From Lactarius indigo (taxonomy: Eukaryota; Basidiomycota; Agaricomycetes; Russulales; Russulaceae), in contig JAFKAC010000037.1 of the NCBI GenBank assembly GCA_025766275.1, positions 248,001 to 312,000 of the forward strand: a stretch of 64,000 bases of DNA, given 5' to 3'. Shown piece after piece: positions 15,688 through 38,610 of this stretch. A model generated the notes under the pieces. The model worked only from the letters and a program-made list of their open reading frames with translations. It was not told where the DNA came from and ran no database searches. Within the stretch, counting starts at the first letter, position 1, and each line of letters begins with the position of its first letter. The position numbers and the translations under genes were made by a program.

Positions 15688-15902
15688 GGGCCAAGTAATG
15701 GTCCCACATTTGACCACCATGGTCAAACGCGGGTCAAGTAATGGTCCCGCATTTGACCATCATGGTCAAATGTGGGCCAAGTAATGGTCCCGCATTTGAC
15801 CACCATGGTCAAACGTGGGCCAAGTAACGGCCCCACGTTTGACCATCATGGTCAAATGTGGGCCAAGTAATGGTCCCACATTTGTCCATGGTGGTCAAAT
15901 GA
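15688..15902. repeat. Five tandem copies of a 43-bp palindromic repeat
   Basis: Five consecutive 43-bp units begin GGGCCAAGTAATGG (variants in two). Each includes a dyad; in units 2 and 4 it is TTTGACCATCATGGTCAAA, a 9-bp perfect inverted repeat with a 1-nt centre. The array ends 26 bp from the gypsy-2 LTR and lies about 100 bp inside the primer-binding site of the LTR at 16017, so it is probably internal sequence of that truncated element. Confidence 0.8.
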
Positions 15903-18244: not shown

Positions 18245-18545
18245 ACATCACAACACCAACATGGTGCCACGACTCGACATCACCACGACACCATGACACA
18301 GACGCAGCGCTGACACCACAACATCAATATGGTGCCACAACACCATGATATCAACATGGTGCCGTGACACCACAACTCTGACACGGTGCCCTGGCACCAT
18401 GACACTGACATGGTGCCACAACACCATGACACTGACATGGTGCCACAACACCACGATACCAATGCAGTGCTGTGATGCCACGGCAGCAACATGGTGCCAC
18501 AACCCCGTAATATCGATACAGCGCTGCTACACCCACGACACCAAC
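18245..18545. repeat. 27-bp minisatellite, about 10-11 imperfect copies
   Basis: The unit is close to ATGGTGCCACAACACCAT plus GACACTGAC. Each contains a short ATGGTG/CACCAT inverted repeat. The unit is a multiple of three, so several frames on the minus strand stay open through it; no start context or flanking coding sequence supports a gene. Confidence 0.85.
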
Positions 18546-18959
18546 ACGGCTTGCAAGCCTCACCCACAACGCTATGGCCTTCTTAGATTACAACTATTAG
18601 TGTAGTACAGTAACTAAATATACACTAGTCCCGTCGGACACATGAAAAGGTAATTTTCACCATGTGGCCTGAGGTATCATAGTCATATCATCCCATTGCA
18701 CGGCAAGCACAACTTAGAACTGAAAGTGATAAGTATAATTTTATTCATTTATTTGTATTTATAACATTTATTTTCTGTGGGAAAAAAGACCGGCATGGGT
18801 CGTTTAAACCCCGGTACCACTGTACTCAAAATGGAAGGGGCCTATTGATTTGGATCCCGCTGTAAATGAGGAATGTGAACCGTGTGAACTACTGATCGAG
18901 AGCGGGATCGATTTGATCAACGGTTTTGTTTCCGACGATCCAACATGCGCAACAAGCGC

Positions 18960-19080
18960 TTTGACGAATTCCAAAGATCCAGTTCCGAGTCCTTATTATA
19001 GGAAGGGAAAACGCAGGAATGGGATCAATCCCACAAAGAATGTGTGATACGACGGAGAGCCATTATTTACTGGGGGATTT
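18960..19080 (+). pseudogene. Degenerate fragment of the P-loop GTPase family
   Basis: About 115 bp align base for base with the P-loop exon of the gene at 22526 (sequence around GTCCTTATTATAGGAAG, then ACGGAGAGCCATTATTTAC). The Walker A glycine-lysine codons are scrambled by substitutions and small indels. No other exon of the gene follows. A dead duplicate fragment. Confidence 0.65.
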
Positions 19081-22525: not shown

Positions 22526-25500
22526 ATGGACATACAGCAACCCCGTCGTCGAATTCCAGAAATCAAGTTCCGCGTGCTTATTATAGGCAGAGCAAACGCA
22601 GGAAAGACGTCTATCCTGCAGAGAATCTGCGAAACAACAGAGAGCCCCATCATTTACCGGGGAGGGGAGGAAGTACGTAGTCCACCCTTTTTGTCCGCGA
22701 ACCTGATCTCACTGCCGACCAGGTTAAACTCGATCCGTCCATGGATGTAAGTGATAGTAGGATTCTCTTCGGTCGTCTTAAACACGAAGCCAGCGAGGCG
22801 AGCACGGAATCGACGACGAACTCGTGTTCTCTAATCATAAGGGCTACGTTTTCCACGACTCGTGTGGAATTGAGGCAGGTAGCGCCAAGGAACTCATGAT
22901 TCTGCAAGAGTTCATTCGACGCAAGTGTGGAGAAAGGCGACTGGCAAACAGATTGCATGCGATATGGTTTGGACTGTCAAGTGTTCACGATTATGACAAC
23001 TAACGGTCATGGTTTTTGAGGTACTGCGTCCCAATGGACAACCAACGGCCACAGCTCGATCTCAAATTTTTCAAGGACATCTGTCCTGACGGAAACGGTG
23101 TGTCATTACGGACGTCCGTGACTAGATTAACCAGATAATTTTCAGTCCCTATCGTTGCTGTATTTACAAAATATGATCAATTCCTACGAAATGTCCAAAT
23201 CTATGTGGAGGATTTCGGAGGCCCAGATGACAATGTATCGGATGTGGCGGAGAAACAATTTGAAGAGCACTACTTGCGTGCACTGGATGATGGTGTTAGA
23301 TTCGTACGATTAGAAAGTGAGTGGAGGGCCAGATACGAGAGTTACGTGCTAATACTTTTGGGCAGAAATGCACAAGCAAAATATGGGCTGCGATAAGCTT
23401 ATTGAGACGACAGCTGCAGCTTTAAATGACGACATCGTCGGATTGATGCTTTTGGCCGTGCAGAACGGTAATTTAGAATTGAGTGTTAAAGAAGCTTTGA
23501 GGCGGTGAGTGTGCTAATGGGAGTGCAATGTGAGCGACAATGACGATGAGCATAGCAGTGCCGGTTCCCATACTGACATGGGGGTCAGAGAAATAGTTCG
23601 GCAGTGTCTCATCCCGTTTCCACAAATCTGGGTGAGTATCGATAAGGCGATACAGTAAATTGTGGTACAGGATTGATAATTGATAATCTTTGATACTGCC
23701 TGACTACTAGTGGGTGAGTGGCTGCCATGGCTCTCTGTGTTTCAAATCTGCTGACGATGGCTGTCCTCGGCTATCCAGAGAGTGAGTGGCTGCTGTGACT
23801 CTCTGTTTCGAGCCAGCTGACGACAGTTTTCCTTGGCTCTCCAGTTCGTGAGTGGCTGCTGTGGCTCTCTGTGTTTTGAACCTGCTGATGACGGCTGTCC
23901 TCGCCTCTCCAGATAGTGAGTGACTGTCGTGTCTATCTGTGTTTCGAGCCTGCTGACGACGGCTGTCCTCGGCTTTTCAGGGAGTGAGTGGCTACCGTGA
24001 CTGTCTGTGCTTCTAGCCTACTGATGACGGCTGTCCTCGCCTCTCCAGATAGTGAGTGACTGTCGTGTCTATCTGTGTTTCGAGCCTGCTGACGACGGCT
24101 GTCCTCGGCTCTCCAGGGAGTGAGTGGCTGCTGTGACTCTCTGTGTTTCGAGCCTGCTGACGACGGCTATCCTCGGCTCTCCAGAGAGTGAGTGGCTGCC
24201 GTGACTCTCTGTGTTTCGAGCCTGCTGACGACAACTGTCCTCGCCTCTCCAGCTCGTGAGTGGCTGCCGTGACTCTCTGTGTTTTGAGCCTGCTGACGAT
24301 GGCTGTCCTCGCCTCTCCAGTTCGTGAGTGACTGTTGTGTCTATCTGTGTTTCGAGCCTGCTGACGATGGCTTCCTCGGCTGTCCAGGAAGTGAGTGGCT
24401 GCCGTGACTCTCTGTGTTTCGAGCCTGCTGACGACGGCTGTCCTCGGCTCTCCAGAGAGTGAGTGGCTGCCGTGACTCTGTGTCTCAAGCCTGCTGACAA
24501 CAGCTGTCCTCGCCTCTCCAGAGAGTGAGTGGCTGCCATGACTGTCTGTGTTTCGAGCCTGCTGACGACAGCTGTCCTCGCCTCTCCAGAGAGTGAGTGG
24601 CTGCCATGACTGTCTGTGTTTCGAGCCTGCTGATGACGGCTGTTCTCGCCTCTCCAGGATGTGAGTGGCTGCCGTGACTCTCTGTGTTTCGAGCCTGCTG
24701 ACGACAGCTGTCCTTGGCTTTCCAGGAAGTGAGTGGCTGCCGTGACTCTGTGTCTCGAGCCTGCTGACGACAGCTCTCCTCGCCTCTCCAGAGAGTGAGT
24801 GGCTGTCGTGACTCTCTGTGTCTCGAGCCTGCTGACGACAGCTGTCCTCGCCTCTCCAGAGAGTGAGTGGCTGCCGTAGCTCTCTGTGTTTCGAGCCCGC
24901 TGACGATGGCTGTCCTTGGCTCTCCAGGAAGTGAGTGGCTGCCGTGACTCTCTGTGTTTCAAGCCTGTTGACGACGGCTGTCCTCGCCTCTCCAGATAGT
25001 GAGTGACTGTTGTGTCTATCTGTGTTTCGAGCCTGCTGACGACAGCTGTCCTCGCCTCTCCAGCTCGTGAGCGGCTGCCATGACTCTGTGTTTTGAGCCT
25101 GCTGACGACAGCTGTCCTCGCCTCTCCAGCTCGTGAGTGGCTGCCGTGACTCTCTGTGTTTTGAGCCTGCTGACGATGGCTGTCCTCGCCACTCCAGTTC
25201 GTGAGTGGCTGCTGTGTGTCGCTGTGTTTCGAGCCTGCTGACGATGACTGTCCTCCACTCTCCAGCCTGTGAGTGGCTGCTGTGTGTCGCTGTGTTTCAA
25301 GCCTGCTGACGACGGCTGTCCTTGGCTCTCCAGGAAGCGAGTGGCTGCCGTGGCTCTCTGTGTTTCGAGCCTGCTGACGACGGCTGTCCTTGGCTCCCCA
25401 GGTCGTGAGTGGCTGCCATGTGTCACTGTGTCTTGAGCCAGCTGATGACTCTTGCCCTCGGATCTTCAGGATGTGAGTTACCATATGCCTTTCTGCATCT

Positions 25501-26239
25501 TTTTACCTGTTGATTATACCTGTCTTTGACTATTCATCAATCTCACTCATCCCTGATCAACTAGAGCGTGCGTGCTTGCTCCCTTTTATAGCTTGCTAAT
25601 GGTGTTTACCTCTAGTTTTCCAGTTTGTAAGTGCTTTCGGTATATTCACCGAACCAAAAATCTCACTTGTCCTTCAGACAGTGCAGATTATGTCACTGCC
25701 CGCCATTCGAAATGTGTTCTTTTTGTACTACATTCATCTATCCCTGGCTTACGATTTTTATCTCTCTAGCTTACTGCCACCGGTCTTGGCACCGGTTATC
25801 ATTTGATTCTCGGTATTTCACATCATTATCTTTAGCGCCTATTTGACTTTTGTCTAAGCTCTCATCCTCATCTTGAAGCATGCCAGCTTATTATGTCTCT
25901 CAAACATGTCACCTGAATTAGCTTTAACCCATGCGGACGTTTGCTATTGGGATGCAAACATTGCCTCGAAAATTCAACAATACCTCGCTGCACCTCAAGA
26001 GCACTCTGACGAGTCATTTGCAAGCTTTATTATGTCCACTGATTTCGTTCGTTTGTTTTTATATCTTTTAATATATTGTCTCAATCTTTTAGTACAGTCC
26101 TACTCTTCGGTCGAAACCACATTTTCACAGACATGATCGTTGGTTTAGGCCGTTCTGGGAATCAATATTCCCATGCAAGTTTATCTTCGTACTGGAGTTG
26201 AGCAACACCGCATGGAAGATAGTTAGATCTATTATTTAA
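22526..26239 (+). CDS. P-loop GTPase with a 3' region made of one-codon exons (possibly decayed at the end)
   Basis: ATG at 22526. Seven exons join in frame: 22526-22672, 22723-22746, 22794-22966, 23021-23097, 23146-23316, 23366-23504 and 23556-23631 (807 nt, 269 codons). The product starts MDIQQPRRRIPEIKFRVLII and has the P-loop GRANAGKTS (GxxxxGKT), a DSCGIEAGS switch-like segment, and TKYD (the NKxD/TKxD base-recognition motif) after VPIVAVF; this is the G-domain family expanded in Agaricomycetes. After exon 7 (ending QIW in phase 0) come about 30 consecutive 3-nt exons between GT-AG introns, most in the tandem array at 23714-25472. Distal exons are weaker: a block reading SPELALTHADVCYWDANI near 25905, and a last exon with HRHDRWFRPFWESIFPCK ending TAA at 26239, both paralogous to 28.9-29.6 kb. 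A TAA at 25855-25857, if exonic, would end the protein early. Role unknown; probably nucleotide-dependent signalling or defence. Confidence 0.7.
23714..25472 (+). repeat. Tandem array of about 26 intron-like 68-bp units, each followed by exactly 3 nt
   Basis: Each unit has a GTGAGTG donor, a GCTGAC-type branch motif, a pyrimidine-rich stretch and a CTCTCCAG acceptor (about 65 nt), followed by 3 nt and the next GTGAGT. I read 27 such triplets including the one before the array (23711-23713) and the last (25470-25472): AGA 7, GAA 4, TTC 3, ATA 3, CTC 3, GGA 2, GAT 2 and TGG, CCT, GTC once each. None is a stop. One unit has a GC donor (GCGAGTGG). Unit length varies slightly, the triplet length never. 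If every intron is removed the triplets add 27 codons in phase 0 to the GTPase. Because 68 is not a multiple of three, unspliced reading gives no repeated peptide. Confidence 0.9.
25473..25769 (+). other. Three further 3-nt exons between non-repeated introns
   Basis: Downstream of the array the pattern continues with unrelated intron sequences: AGC (25565-25567) before GTGCGTG, TTT (25624-25626) between TTTTCCAG and GTAAGTG, and ACA (25678-25680) between CCTTCAG and GTGCAG. These introns are not copies of the 68-bp unit, so the one-codon exons are not only a by-product of the repeat. Confidence 0.55.
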
Positions 26240-28321: not shown

Positions 28322-28857
28322 CTGGTGAGCAGCTGTGGTGACTTGGTGCATTTCGAGCCTGCTGACGATGGCTGTCCTCGGCTCTCCAGCATGTGAGTGG
28401 TTTCCAAAATTTCAAGCTTACCGGCAATAGCTGTCCTCGGCTGTCCAGTTGGTGAGTGGTTGTTGTGGCTCAGTACGTTTCAAGCTTAGTGATGACGGCC
28501 ATCCTCGGCTGTCCATCATGTGAGCAGCTGCTGTGGCTCAGTGCATTTCAAGCCTACCGACAACGGCTGTCCTCTGCTCTCCAGTCCGTGAGTGGCTGCC
28601 ATGGCTCGGTGCTTTTCAAGCCTACTGACGACAGCCATCCTCGGCTCTCCAGAAAGTGAGTGGCTGCCATGGATCAATGCGTTTCAAGCCTACTAATGAT
28701 GGCTGTCCCTGACTCTCCAGTTTGTAAGTGGCTGCGGTGTCTCGGGGCGTTTCAAGCCTACTGATGACGGCTGTCTTTGACCCCTAGTTGGTAAGTGGTT
28801 GCAGTGATTGGGGCCTTTCAAGCCTCCTCATCAGGCCTATACTCGGCTTTCCAGGAA
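28322..28857 (+). repeat. Second, older array of intron-like units with 3-nt exons
   Basis: Nine triplets (CTG, CAT, TTG, CAT, TCC, AAA, TTT, TTG, GAA) separate eight units related to those at 23.7 kb but visibly more diverged from each other. All eight donors are intact (GTGAGC, GTGAGT or GTAAGT). Seven of eight acceptors are intact; one reads CCAT instead of CCAG before the second CAT. Branch-like motifs (CTGAC, CTACTAAT, TGATGAC) persist in most. The spacing of exactly 3 nt is kept throughout. Confidence 0.85.
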
Positions 28858-29617
28858 GTGAGTAGTCGTTTCCTCGGCCTGTTTCTTCGCTTGTTGATCA
28901 CGCTTGTCCTTGACCTTCCATTGATCCTACTCATTCCTGGCCCTCAAGTGCGTGCGTGCCGCATGCACTTCAAGTTCTTTCCAGCCTGTTAATCGTGTTT
29001 AGCTTTGGTTATCTTCTTTGTAAGTGCTCCCCGTATGTTCACTCAACCAAGTATAAGGCAATGCAGGCTACGTCATTTTCCACCCTTCAAAATGTGTTAT
29101 TTTCGTATCACAACCATCTTTCTCTGTCGCTTATGAAATTTATTTCTCTAGCTCACCCACAAAAGTCATCGTGATCCTCATTTGATCTTTGGTATTGCAC
29201 TCTATCGTGTTTAGAGCATATTTAACCTCTGTGGAAGGTGCTATCATTATCTTCAAGCACACCACGTTCTTACGTCTCTCGGGCCTCTCAGCCGAATCCG
29301 CACTGACTCGGGCGGAGCTGGACTATCGAGAGACGAAGGTCGACTTGAAAATTCAACGACACCTTACGAGGTCTTCTCACTGAAAAGACTCTGTTGTGCT
29401 ATCTGCACGCTTTATTATGACTACGGATATTGGTTCTTTTTTACTCTTGCGTCTGTTATGATAATATCTAATCATGCTTCTAGGGCTATCTCAGTCCCTA
29501 TCTCAGTCCTTGAACGAGCTTTTAGTGCCCGCCCAATCTTCTGTCGAAACACACGTGCATAGAAAAGACCATCGGTTTAAACGGTTTTGGAAACCCGTAT
29601 TTCCGCGCACGTCTTGA
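28858..29617 (+). pseudogene. C-terminal part of a second GTPase-family copy without its G domain
   Basis: The sequence after the second array matches the 3' end of the gene at 22526 in order: a TGC triplet before GTGCGTG, a GTAAGTG donor, a coding block reading FLRLSGLSAESALTRAELDY and a last exon with HRKDHRFKRFWKPVFPRTS ending TGA at 29617. An acceptor seen at 25623 in the first copy is lost here, and a TGA follows LTRSSH. No P-loop exon is found upstream of the array, so this is a 5'-truncated copy. Confidence 0.6.
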
Positions 29618-38171: not shown

Positions 38172-38610
38172 ATGAGAAAGGTACCTAACTCCAGAAACCC
38201 GGGCCGCTGCAGTTCGATGTTTCCTTTGTCGTGCAAATGTTCACCATCCCGTCATCAAATTCCAAAGATGAAGTTTCGAGTCCTTATTATAGGAAGAGCA
38301 AATGCTGGAAAGACGACTATCCTACAAAGAGTCTGTGAGACATCCGACGGCCACATTTATTACCAAATATTCCGGAGAAAGGATCAGGGAGAGGACCCGG
38401 AGAAGGTACATGGTCCAACCTTGTCTACGAGTCCAATCTCACTACCGACCAGGTTAAACTTGAGCCGTCCATCGATGTCAGTAACGGTGGTACTTCTCTT
38501 CTCAATTTGTGCCCATAAGTCAGTGGTTGAACGAGCGCGTTTTATGACTCTGACAAATTACCAACCCATCACCTCAGAGTTCTCTACTGTGCTGTCTTCT
38601 TGTTGAAACA
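38172..38610 (+). pseudogene. 5' fragment of a P-loop GTPase gene
   Basis: A frame reading IPKMKFRVLIIGRANAGKTT, then ILQRVCETSDGHIYYQIFRR, closely matches exon 1 of the gene at 22526 with an intact Walker A motif. The next intron (GTACATGG...ACCGACCAG) and the start of exon 2 (VKLEPSID) are kept, but the donor after that codon is changed from GTAAGT to GTCAGT and the following exons are absent. A truncated duplicate; it has no one-codon array. Confidence 0.75.

Follow-up and report, generated by a model that had tools for sequence, protein, structure and literature searches.

Can a protein-coding gene store part of its product one codon at a time, with a complete intron after each codon? This question is raised by a locus in the window analysed here, a stretch of 64,000 nucleotides on contig C223 of the 90.3 Mb genome of Lactarius indigo, in which the exons of a GTPase gene run into a long block of tandem units, each with its own intron signals. 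A sequence-only reading of the window had suggested that this block might be a working intron array which adds codons singly, and had named as alternatives a single long intron that is skipped as a whole and a plain minisatellite. Our analysis supports the first of these suggestions and favours it over the other two. With a probability of roughly 0.8 we consider that the array is spliced and translated, that it encodes a hypervariable segment and that this segment is reshuffled by recombination within near-identical introns, a reading derived from comparison of DNA and protein sequences.

Structure of the array and of the window gene

The presence of a tandem array of one-codon exons between complete introns is confirmed (Table 1). 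Using a relaxed donor pattern, 29 exons of exactly 3 nt were found on the forward strand, none of which is a stop, and the earlier statement that the units are always separated by three nucleotides that never form a stop holds for the whole range from 23711 to 25626. Each unit consists of an intron, with the donor GTGAGT in most cases, a branch site of the CTGAC type and the acceptor YAG, followed by exactly 3 nt. The block had been described as about 26 units of 68 bp; the complete signals stand, but 26 of the 28 introns measure 63, 64 or, in most cases, 65 nt, which gives units of 66–68 bp, and the remaining two measure 92 and 56 nt. In addition, a GTGCGT donor near the end of the array adds the triplet AGC, bringing the total to 29.

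As had been proposed, the upstream GTPase exons reach the first triplet in phase 0, the last of them ending with FPQIW. The array had also been taken for the 3' half of the gene; it does follow the GTPase exons, but further phase-0 exons lie 3' of it, and all 29 triplets are in phase 0 with the exons at both ends. As the gene continues in phase 0 past the array, the array sits between two coding regions, and a segment WRFIGIGRLFERRRDERREILLFPEVDSF is predicted between FPQIW and TVQIMSLPAIRN in the product of the window gene. An unspliced reading of the array was rejected, the listed frames being broken by stops throughout.

Table 1. Features of the window (positions count from the first nucleotide of the window)
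Feature	Position	Strand	Remarks
Seven ordinary P-loop GTPase exons (putative)	22526..23631	+	Splice model; 268 codons, the last five FPQIW; phase 0 at the end
Coordinates of the seven GTPase exons	22526-22672, 22723-22746, 22794-22966, 23021-23097, 23146-23316, 23366-23504, 23559-23631	+	
One-codon-exon array	23711..25626	+	29 exons, 28 introns (26 of 63-65 nt, last two 92 and 56 nt)
Triplet AGC	25565..25567	+	Precedes GTGCGT donor; overlooked by strict pattern; 92-nt and 56-nt introns on either side
First exon 3' of array, TVQIMSLPAIRN	25678..25713	+	36 nt, phase 0; matched to P0121 and P0092
Short tail exon, LTATGLGT (predicted)	25770..25794	+	25 nt; weak donors GTGTTC and GTTATC nearby; model inferred from P0121
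C-terminal exon, ALILILKHASLLCLSNMS...IMSTDF	25859..26046	+	At least 188 nt; end not fixed, about 26046 as a minimum
Second array, short and decayed	28322..28951	+	9 triplets (relaxed pattern), at least one acceptor lost
Decayed copy of C-terminal exon	29243..29428	+	One internal stop; adjoins second array

The predicted protein contains the G1 motif GRANAGKTS and would, on its sequence, be classed as a P-loop GTPase; its match to the MMR_HSR1 profile is weak (21.3 bits, just below the cut-off of 21.9). In all 21 loci compared the reading frame of GTPase exons 3, 5 and 6 is intact, with a pooled pN/pS of 0.29 (210 pairs), and these flanking exons are under purifying selection. The three tail exons are in frame and are predicted to code for a C-terminal domain, TVQIMSLPAIRNLTATGLGTALILILKHASLLCLSNMS..., their splice sites having been located by comparison with open reading frames (ORFs) from JGI contigs (see below). 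An early tail model with a stop at 25804-25806 was replaced after this comparison; the first protein search, the MMR_HSR1 search and the search for PDB sequences, which gave no matches, were made with the window protein that carried this early tail. For the relative P0092 a predicted model (pTM 0.59) matched GTPase folds weakly, the fold search giving 15 matches at E <= 0.001, every one with a TM-score on the query below 0.3. In this model the insert appears as low-confidence helices that lead from the GTPase domain to a more confident helical C-terminal part.

Occurrence in the genome

A DNA search of the L. indigo genome gave 92 matching stretches, manual merging of which left 40 array places, that of the window among them; this is a minimum, since 40 of 51 candidates were scored. 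In 37 of these places GTPase exon 3 lies on the same strand, 636–939 bp upstream of the array. The other three are short and have no GTPase exon 3 within 1.6 kb upstream; one of them is homologous to the window's decayed second array. Arrays outside any gene, which the sequence-only reading had named as an argument against its proposal, are thereby limited to at most these three short places, one of which was read. Searching in the other direction, we obtained 62 matches to GTPase exon 3; after the 9 weakest had been dropped, 37 of the 53 kept had a listed array and 16 had none, and at the two of these 16 that were read, a tail or unit match was not found downstream on their own strand. On the reverse strand of L016 (5000-8600) and L015 (5900-9700) there are GTPase relatives with recognisable exons 1–6, for which the FPxIW end, array and tail were not found downstream, and which may constitute an array-free branch. 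A regular-expression search found no reverse-strand array in the loci.

The unit pattern TCCAGNNNGTGAGTGGCTG with a 3-nt exon matches the genome 838 times. No match was obtained when 1–2 or 4–12 nt took the place of the three, none when the triplet was TAA, TAG or TGA, and none for the reversed control of the pattern. Together with the TRF score of 2273 for the window array, the 838 matches against none for the control show that this array is not a product of chance.

Altogether 27 arrays were read in 25 sequences (the window, 20 loci and 4 further loci). The predicted segment comprises about 29 residues in the window and between 26 and 75 in those long arrays that were read, and R, E, D, L and F account for 674 of 912 encoded residues. 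Intron lengths range from 51 to 143 nt and fall into all three classes modulo 3, while the exons stay at 3 nt. Among the introns of at most 75 nt (n = 1082), 978 have GTGAGT, 944 CCAG and 996 a CTRAY site, the first two counts being partly so by construction, as units were chosen by donor and acceptor patterns. As every unit has a donor, a branch site and an acceptor, the block has the features of a spliceosomal intron array.

Open reading frames from JGI contigs and gene models of other Lactarius species

Three protein searches (best 120 of 943, best 120 of 2345 and 9 of 9 matches) yielded 162 proteins, eight of which are ORFs from JGI contigs of 1.1–3.0 kb, known here as protein only. These ORFs are uninterrupted across the GTPase intron positions that they cover (P0143 starting in exon 1, P0121 and P0122 around exon 3), and they were therefore taken as cDNA-like. 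What follows the FPxIW-type end differs among them: P0037 has no codon after FPxIW/FPYIY and reads through the first intron, whereas P0070 continues with four residues (FFFN), P0088 with eleven (LFEEEGDTFIE) and P0143 with eighteen (VWKDKDFYEDDKDFNEEY), in each case before an array-type intron in phase 0. P0077 continues with FFGVR and then with a unit in another frame, and in P0121, P0122 and P0092 about 43, 27 and 57 residues, with boundaries set by eye, lead to the C-terminal domain. Although the ORFs represent different genes, probably of other species, and ordinary longer exons could underlie them, the series suggests that the introns are removed starting at the 5' end.

The inserts of P0121, P0122, P0143, P0088 and P0070 favour array composition over GTPase-domain composition with log2 odds of 2.4–10.3. 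That of P0092 does not fit in this comparison (log2 odds of -28.3), but for all six inserts, P0092 included, array composition fits better than translated intron.

A translated array-type intron follows FPxIW in the gene models P0085, P0023 (L. sanguifluus), P0160 (L. hatsudake), P0142 (L. vividus), P0124 (L. pseudohatsudake) and P0103 (L. tabidus). As models of other species thus run into such introns, arrays of this kind are probably widespread in the genus. Many public gene models of the family end at or just before the array, or enter its introns, so that the annotation of a large Lactarius gene family is probably faulty.

The triplets as codons

Not one stop was found among 1140 triplets (27 arrays, 25 sequences). 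From the composition of the columns, 92 stops would be expected in 817 non-redundant triplets of 20 arrays (omitting the seven sequences L016, L022, L028, L037, L038, L039 and L040), an expectation that comes out too high, as the columns are not independent of each other and a handful of codons prevail. As a conservative test we considered only rare triplets that lie one step away from a triplet common in their own array; here 0 of 93 were stops against 4.7–7.9 expected (P 0.0003–0.008). In a control with 662 units, stops were about as frequent as expected in most of the other 3-nt windows for which the expectation was 3 or more (observed against expected 40 and 43.1, 80 and 80.9, 116 and 112.9). 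Stops were depleted in three windows, one of them overlapping the exon (at -2, 11 against 83.5) and two lying in the intron (at 19, 0 against 5.5; at 45, 34 against 67.4).

These results bear on the possibility that the entire array is skipped as one long intron, from exon 7 to 25678 and in frame, its triplets never being used. The frame also works without the array, and the L. tabidus gene model P0074 joins FPYIW directly to the tail. Unused triplets should however acquire stops and length changes, neither of which is seen, and P0121, P0122 and P0092 possess a segment between FPYIW and the tail, so that we regard a skip of the whole array as unlikely. Splicing and translation of the array triplets, on the other hand, are strongly suggested.

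Variation within and between arrays

The triplets are the most variable part of the unit: averaged over 20 arrays, entropy is 1.61–1.69 bits in the triplet columns and 0–0.84 in the intron columns, and it is near 0 at the bases adjoining the exon. When pairs of units were taken whose introns are at most 1 nt apart, the triplets following them differed in 75–84% of cases, by 1.8–2.75 nt, in the six arrays with the most such pairs (L022 210, L011 183, L019 138, L024 60, L023 48, L013 32). For L020 (26 pairs) and L012 (8 pairs) the values were 54% and 50%, and all remaining arrays have three such pairs or fewer.

Related arrays show the same when compared with each other. Between L023 and L024 the array introns differ by 4.3% and the triplet bases by 60%; between L011 and L022 the values are 0.45% and 9.5%, with no difference in 1200 upstream bases. 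In L014/L028 and L015/L016 the triplets differ by less than 2%. Two kinds of array can be seen here. In L014/L028/L039, L015/L016/L040 and L017/L037/L038 the introns have diverged within the array and the order of codons is kept between copies, while in L011/L022 and L023/L024 the introns within an array are near-identical and codons as well as array length change quickly. Polymorphisms in the 5' part of the intron track the preceding triplet and those at its 3' end rather the following one, a weak and uneven association.

This pattern fits recombination within introns which would shuffle codons, the introns being homogenised and the diversity of codons being kept by selection; in the young arrays, where the units are nearly alike, codon change in place and reshuffling are inseparable by unit alignment. 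Local duplication of single units was considered as well and rejected, intron similarity being flat with distance (7.9–8.6 differences at lags 1–15). Triplet identity is weakly raised at lag 5 only (z 2.3), and the helical periodicity of the encoded peptides is weak (z 1.9 at lag 4, z -2.1 at lag 2).

An intron-derived minisatellite that came to lie in the gene by accident and is copied by slippage or unequal exchange, with the splice signals as an inherited by-product, would account for homogenised units, for unit numbers that vary between near-identical copies and for the one decayed array outside any recognisable GTPase gene. Such copying should homogenise the triplet together with its intron, yet it is the triplets that vary most, and stops and odd spacer lengths would be expected. 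The position of 37 of the 40 array places at one site of one gene family speaks against it too, and we consider this explanation very unlikely.

Triplet choice

If the introns are spliced singly, the triplets might still matter for splicing only, for instance through avoidance of AG, and not as codons. Triplets ending in AG are indeed scarce (3 against 58 expected by columns, an inflated expectation), as would be expected if an extra AG competes as acceptor; in the conservative test avoidance is weak (3 against about 7). TAA and TGA, moreover, would make a GTRAGT donor across the acceptor. TAT likewise makes GTATGT across the junction, yet it is used 27 times where 33 are expected, so that a need to keep out new donors does not by itself explain why TAA and TGA are avoided. 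In the positionally stable arrays (the three groups of three named above) 8 of 14 triplet changes, counted by hand, are synonymous against 21–29% expected (P 0.004–0.026); one of the six non-synonymous changes alters all three bases. Given this synonymous excess, and JGI ORFs that are open through the segment, there is little to be said for a role of the triplets in splicing alone.

Equally improbable is an introner-like invasion, in which an ordinary exon was split by repeated insertion of one mobile intron: it would explain near-identical introns between unrelated codons, but it is difficult to see how every codon could have received an insertion in one and the same phase, and a target duplication, tested for 3 bp only, predicts identical neighbouring triplets, of which no excess is seen (89 of 782, z -1.05).

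Proposed mechanism

Where introns are short and have good donors and branch sites, recognition can take place across the intron itself. As a 3-nt exon can hardly carry complexes on both of its sides, neighbouring introns are probably removed in turn, as general knowledge of splicing would suggest. In the spliced and translated array proposed here, every intron of about 65 nt would be removed individually, probably successively from the 5' end, and the 3-nt exons, each a codon, would together make up a segment that lies between the GTPase domain and the C-terminal helical domain. We infer this order, and likewise the inclusion of all triplets; since each exon is one codon in phase 0, any skipped exon would leave the frame intact. 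The introns within an array would be homogenised in the manner of a satellite while the codons remain diverse, and recombination inside near-identical introns would reorder, add and remove codons, resulting in a hypervariable segment. This segment may serve as a variable recognition or interaction surface, a guess based on hypervariability, clustering and the analogy with the repeats of fungal NLRs.

More tentatively, and with rather more doubt than confidence, one might speak of a codon satellite: each tandem intron unit would hold one codon of a protein segment, recombination between introns would rewrite this segment, and splicing may also include or skip its codons. Each gene could then give rise to many in-frame peptides and the family to a repertoire that diversifies fast, perhaps serving this dikaryotic ectomycorrhizal fungus in self/non-self or partner recognition. 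If the array is indeed spliced and translated, the spliceosome would build a protein segment from dozens of successive 3-nt exons, far beyond isolated microexons, and the arrays would offer a natural system in which to test intron definition, the order of splicing and steric limits. They would also represent a new route to a hypervariable protein region, with homology provided by the introns and one codon per unit.

Relation to known systems

Literature searches, which largely covered papers outside subscription, found no counterpart to a run of consecutive one-codon exons. The nearest architecture is that of the micro-exon genes (MEGs) of Schistosoma, whose micro-exons are longer and unlike one another and whose introns are not known to form a satellite. 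Much of the coding sequence of these fast-evolving families lies in very small symmetrical exons, and splice variants stay in frame (PMC4350168). The likeness lies in small, frame-safe exons and does not extend to membership of the same family: MEGs are platyhelminth genes, whereas in L. indigo the exons are single codons and the repeated unit is the intron. Nor does most of the coding sequence lie in small symmetrical exons as in MEGs, the seven ordinary exons holding 268 codons and the array 29.

Isolated 3-nt microexons have been described (PMC13149111), among them two exons of 3 nt in a gene of the fungus Dactylellina (PMC5639578); they likewise stand between ordinary introns, but L. indigo has dozens in a row. 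Fungal introner-like elements provide many near-identical spliceosomal introns in one genome (PMC4457414) and multiply across many genes, whereas those found in L. indigo stand in tandem and go with a single gene family. Among the first 100 of the 838 unit-pattern matches, all lie within arrays except C13:1286478.

The fungal NOD-like receptors whose repeats show high internal conservation (het-d/het-e of Podospora) resemble the arrays in their homogenised repeats, their hypervariable positions and an expanded nucleotide-binding family. The repeats of het-d and het-e are long coding WD40 units, whereas that of L. indigo is almost wholly intron, with one variable codon per unit. As to nucleotide binding, the likeness is limited to the weak MMR_HSR1 match of the window protein.

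Further observations on the window and the gene family

No GTPase exons were found upstream of the second array of the window (28322-28951). A homologue of this array, colinear with the window, is found on contig C268 (L009 from 8284). Other tandem repeats of the window lie at 15688-15901 and 18311-18503 (period 43; period 27/54). Further matches to exon 1 of the GTPase family are found at 18950-19060, which contains a stop, and at 38250-38366. Finally, the L. indigo proteins P0001, P0003, P0009, P0010 and P0012 carry an extra N-terminal region of about 110–170 residues before the GTPase domain, a region that is not part of our model of the window gene.
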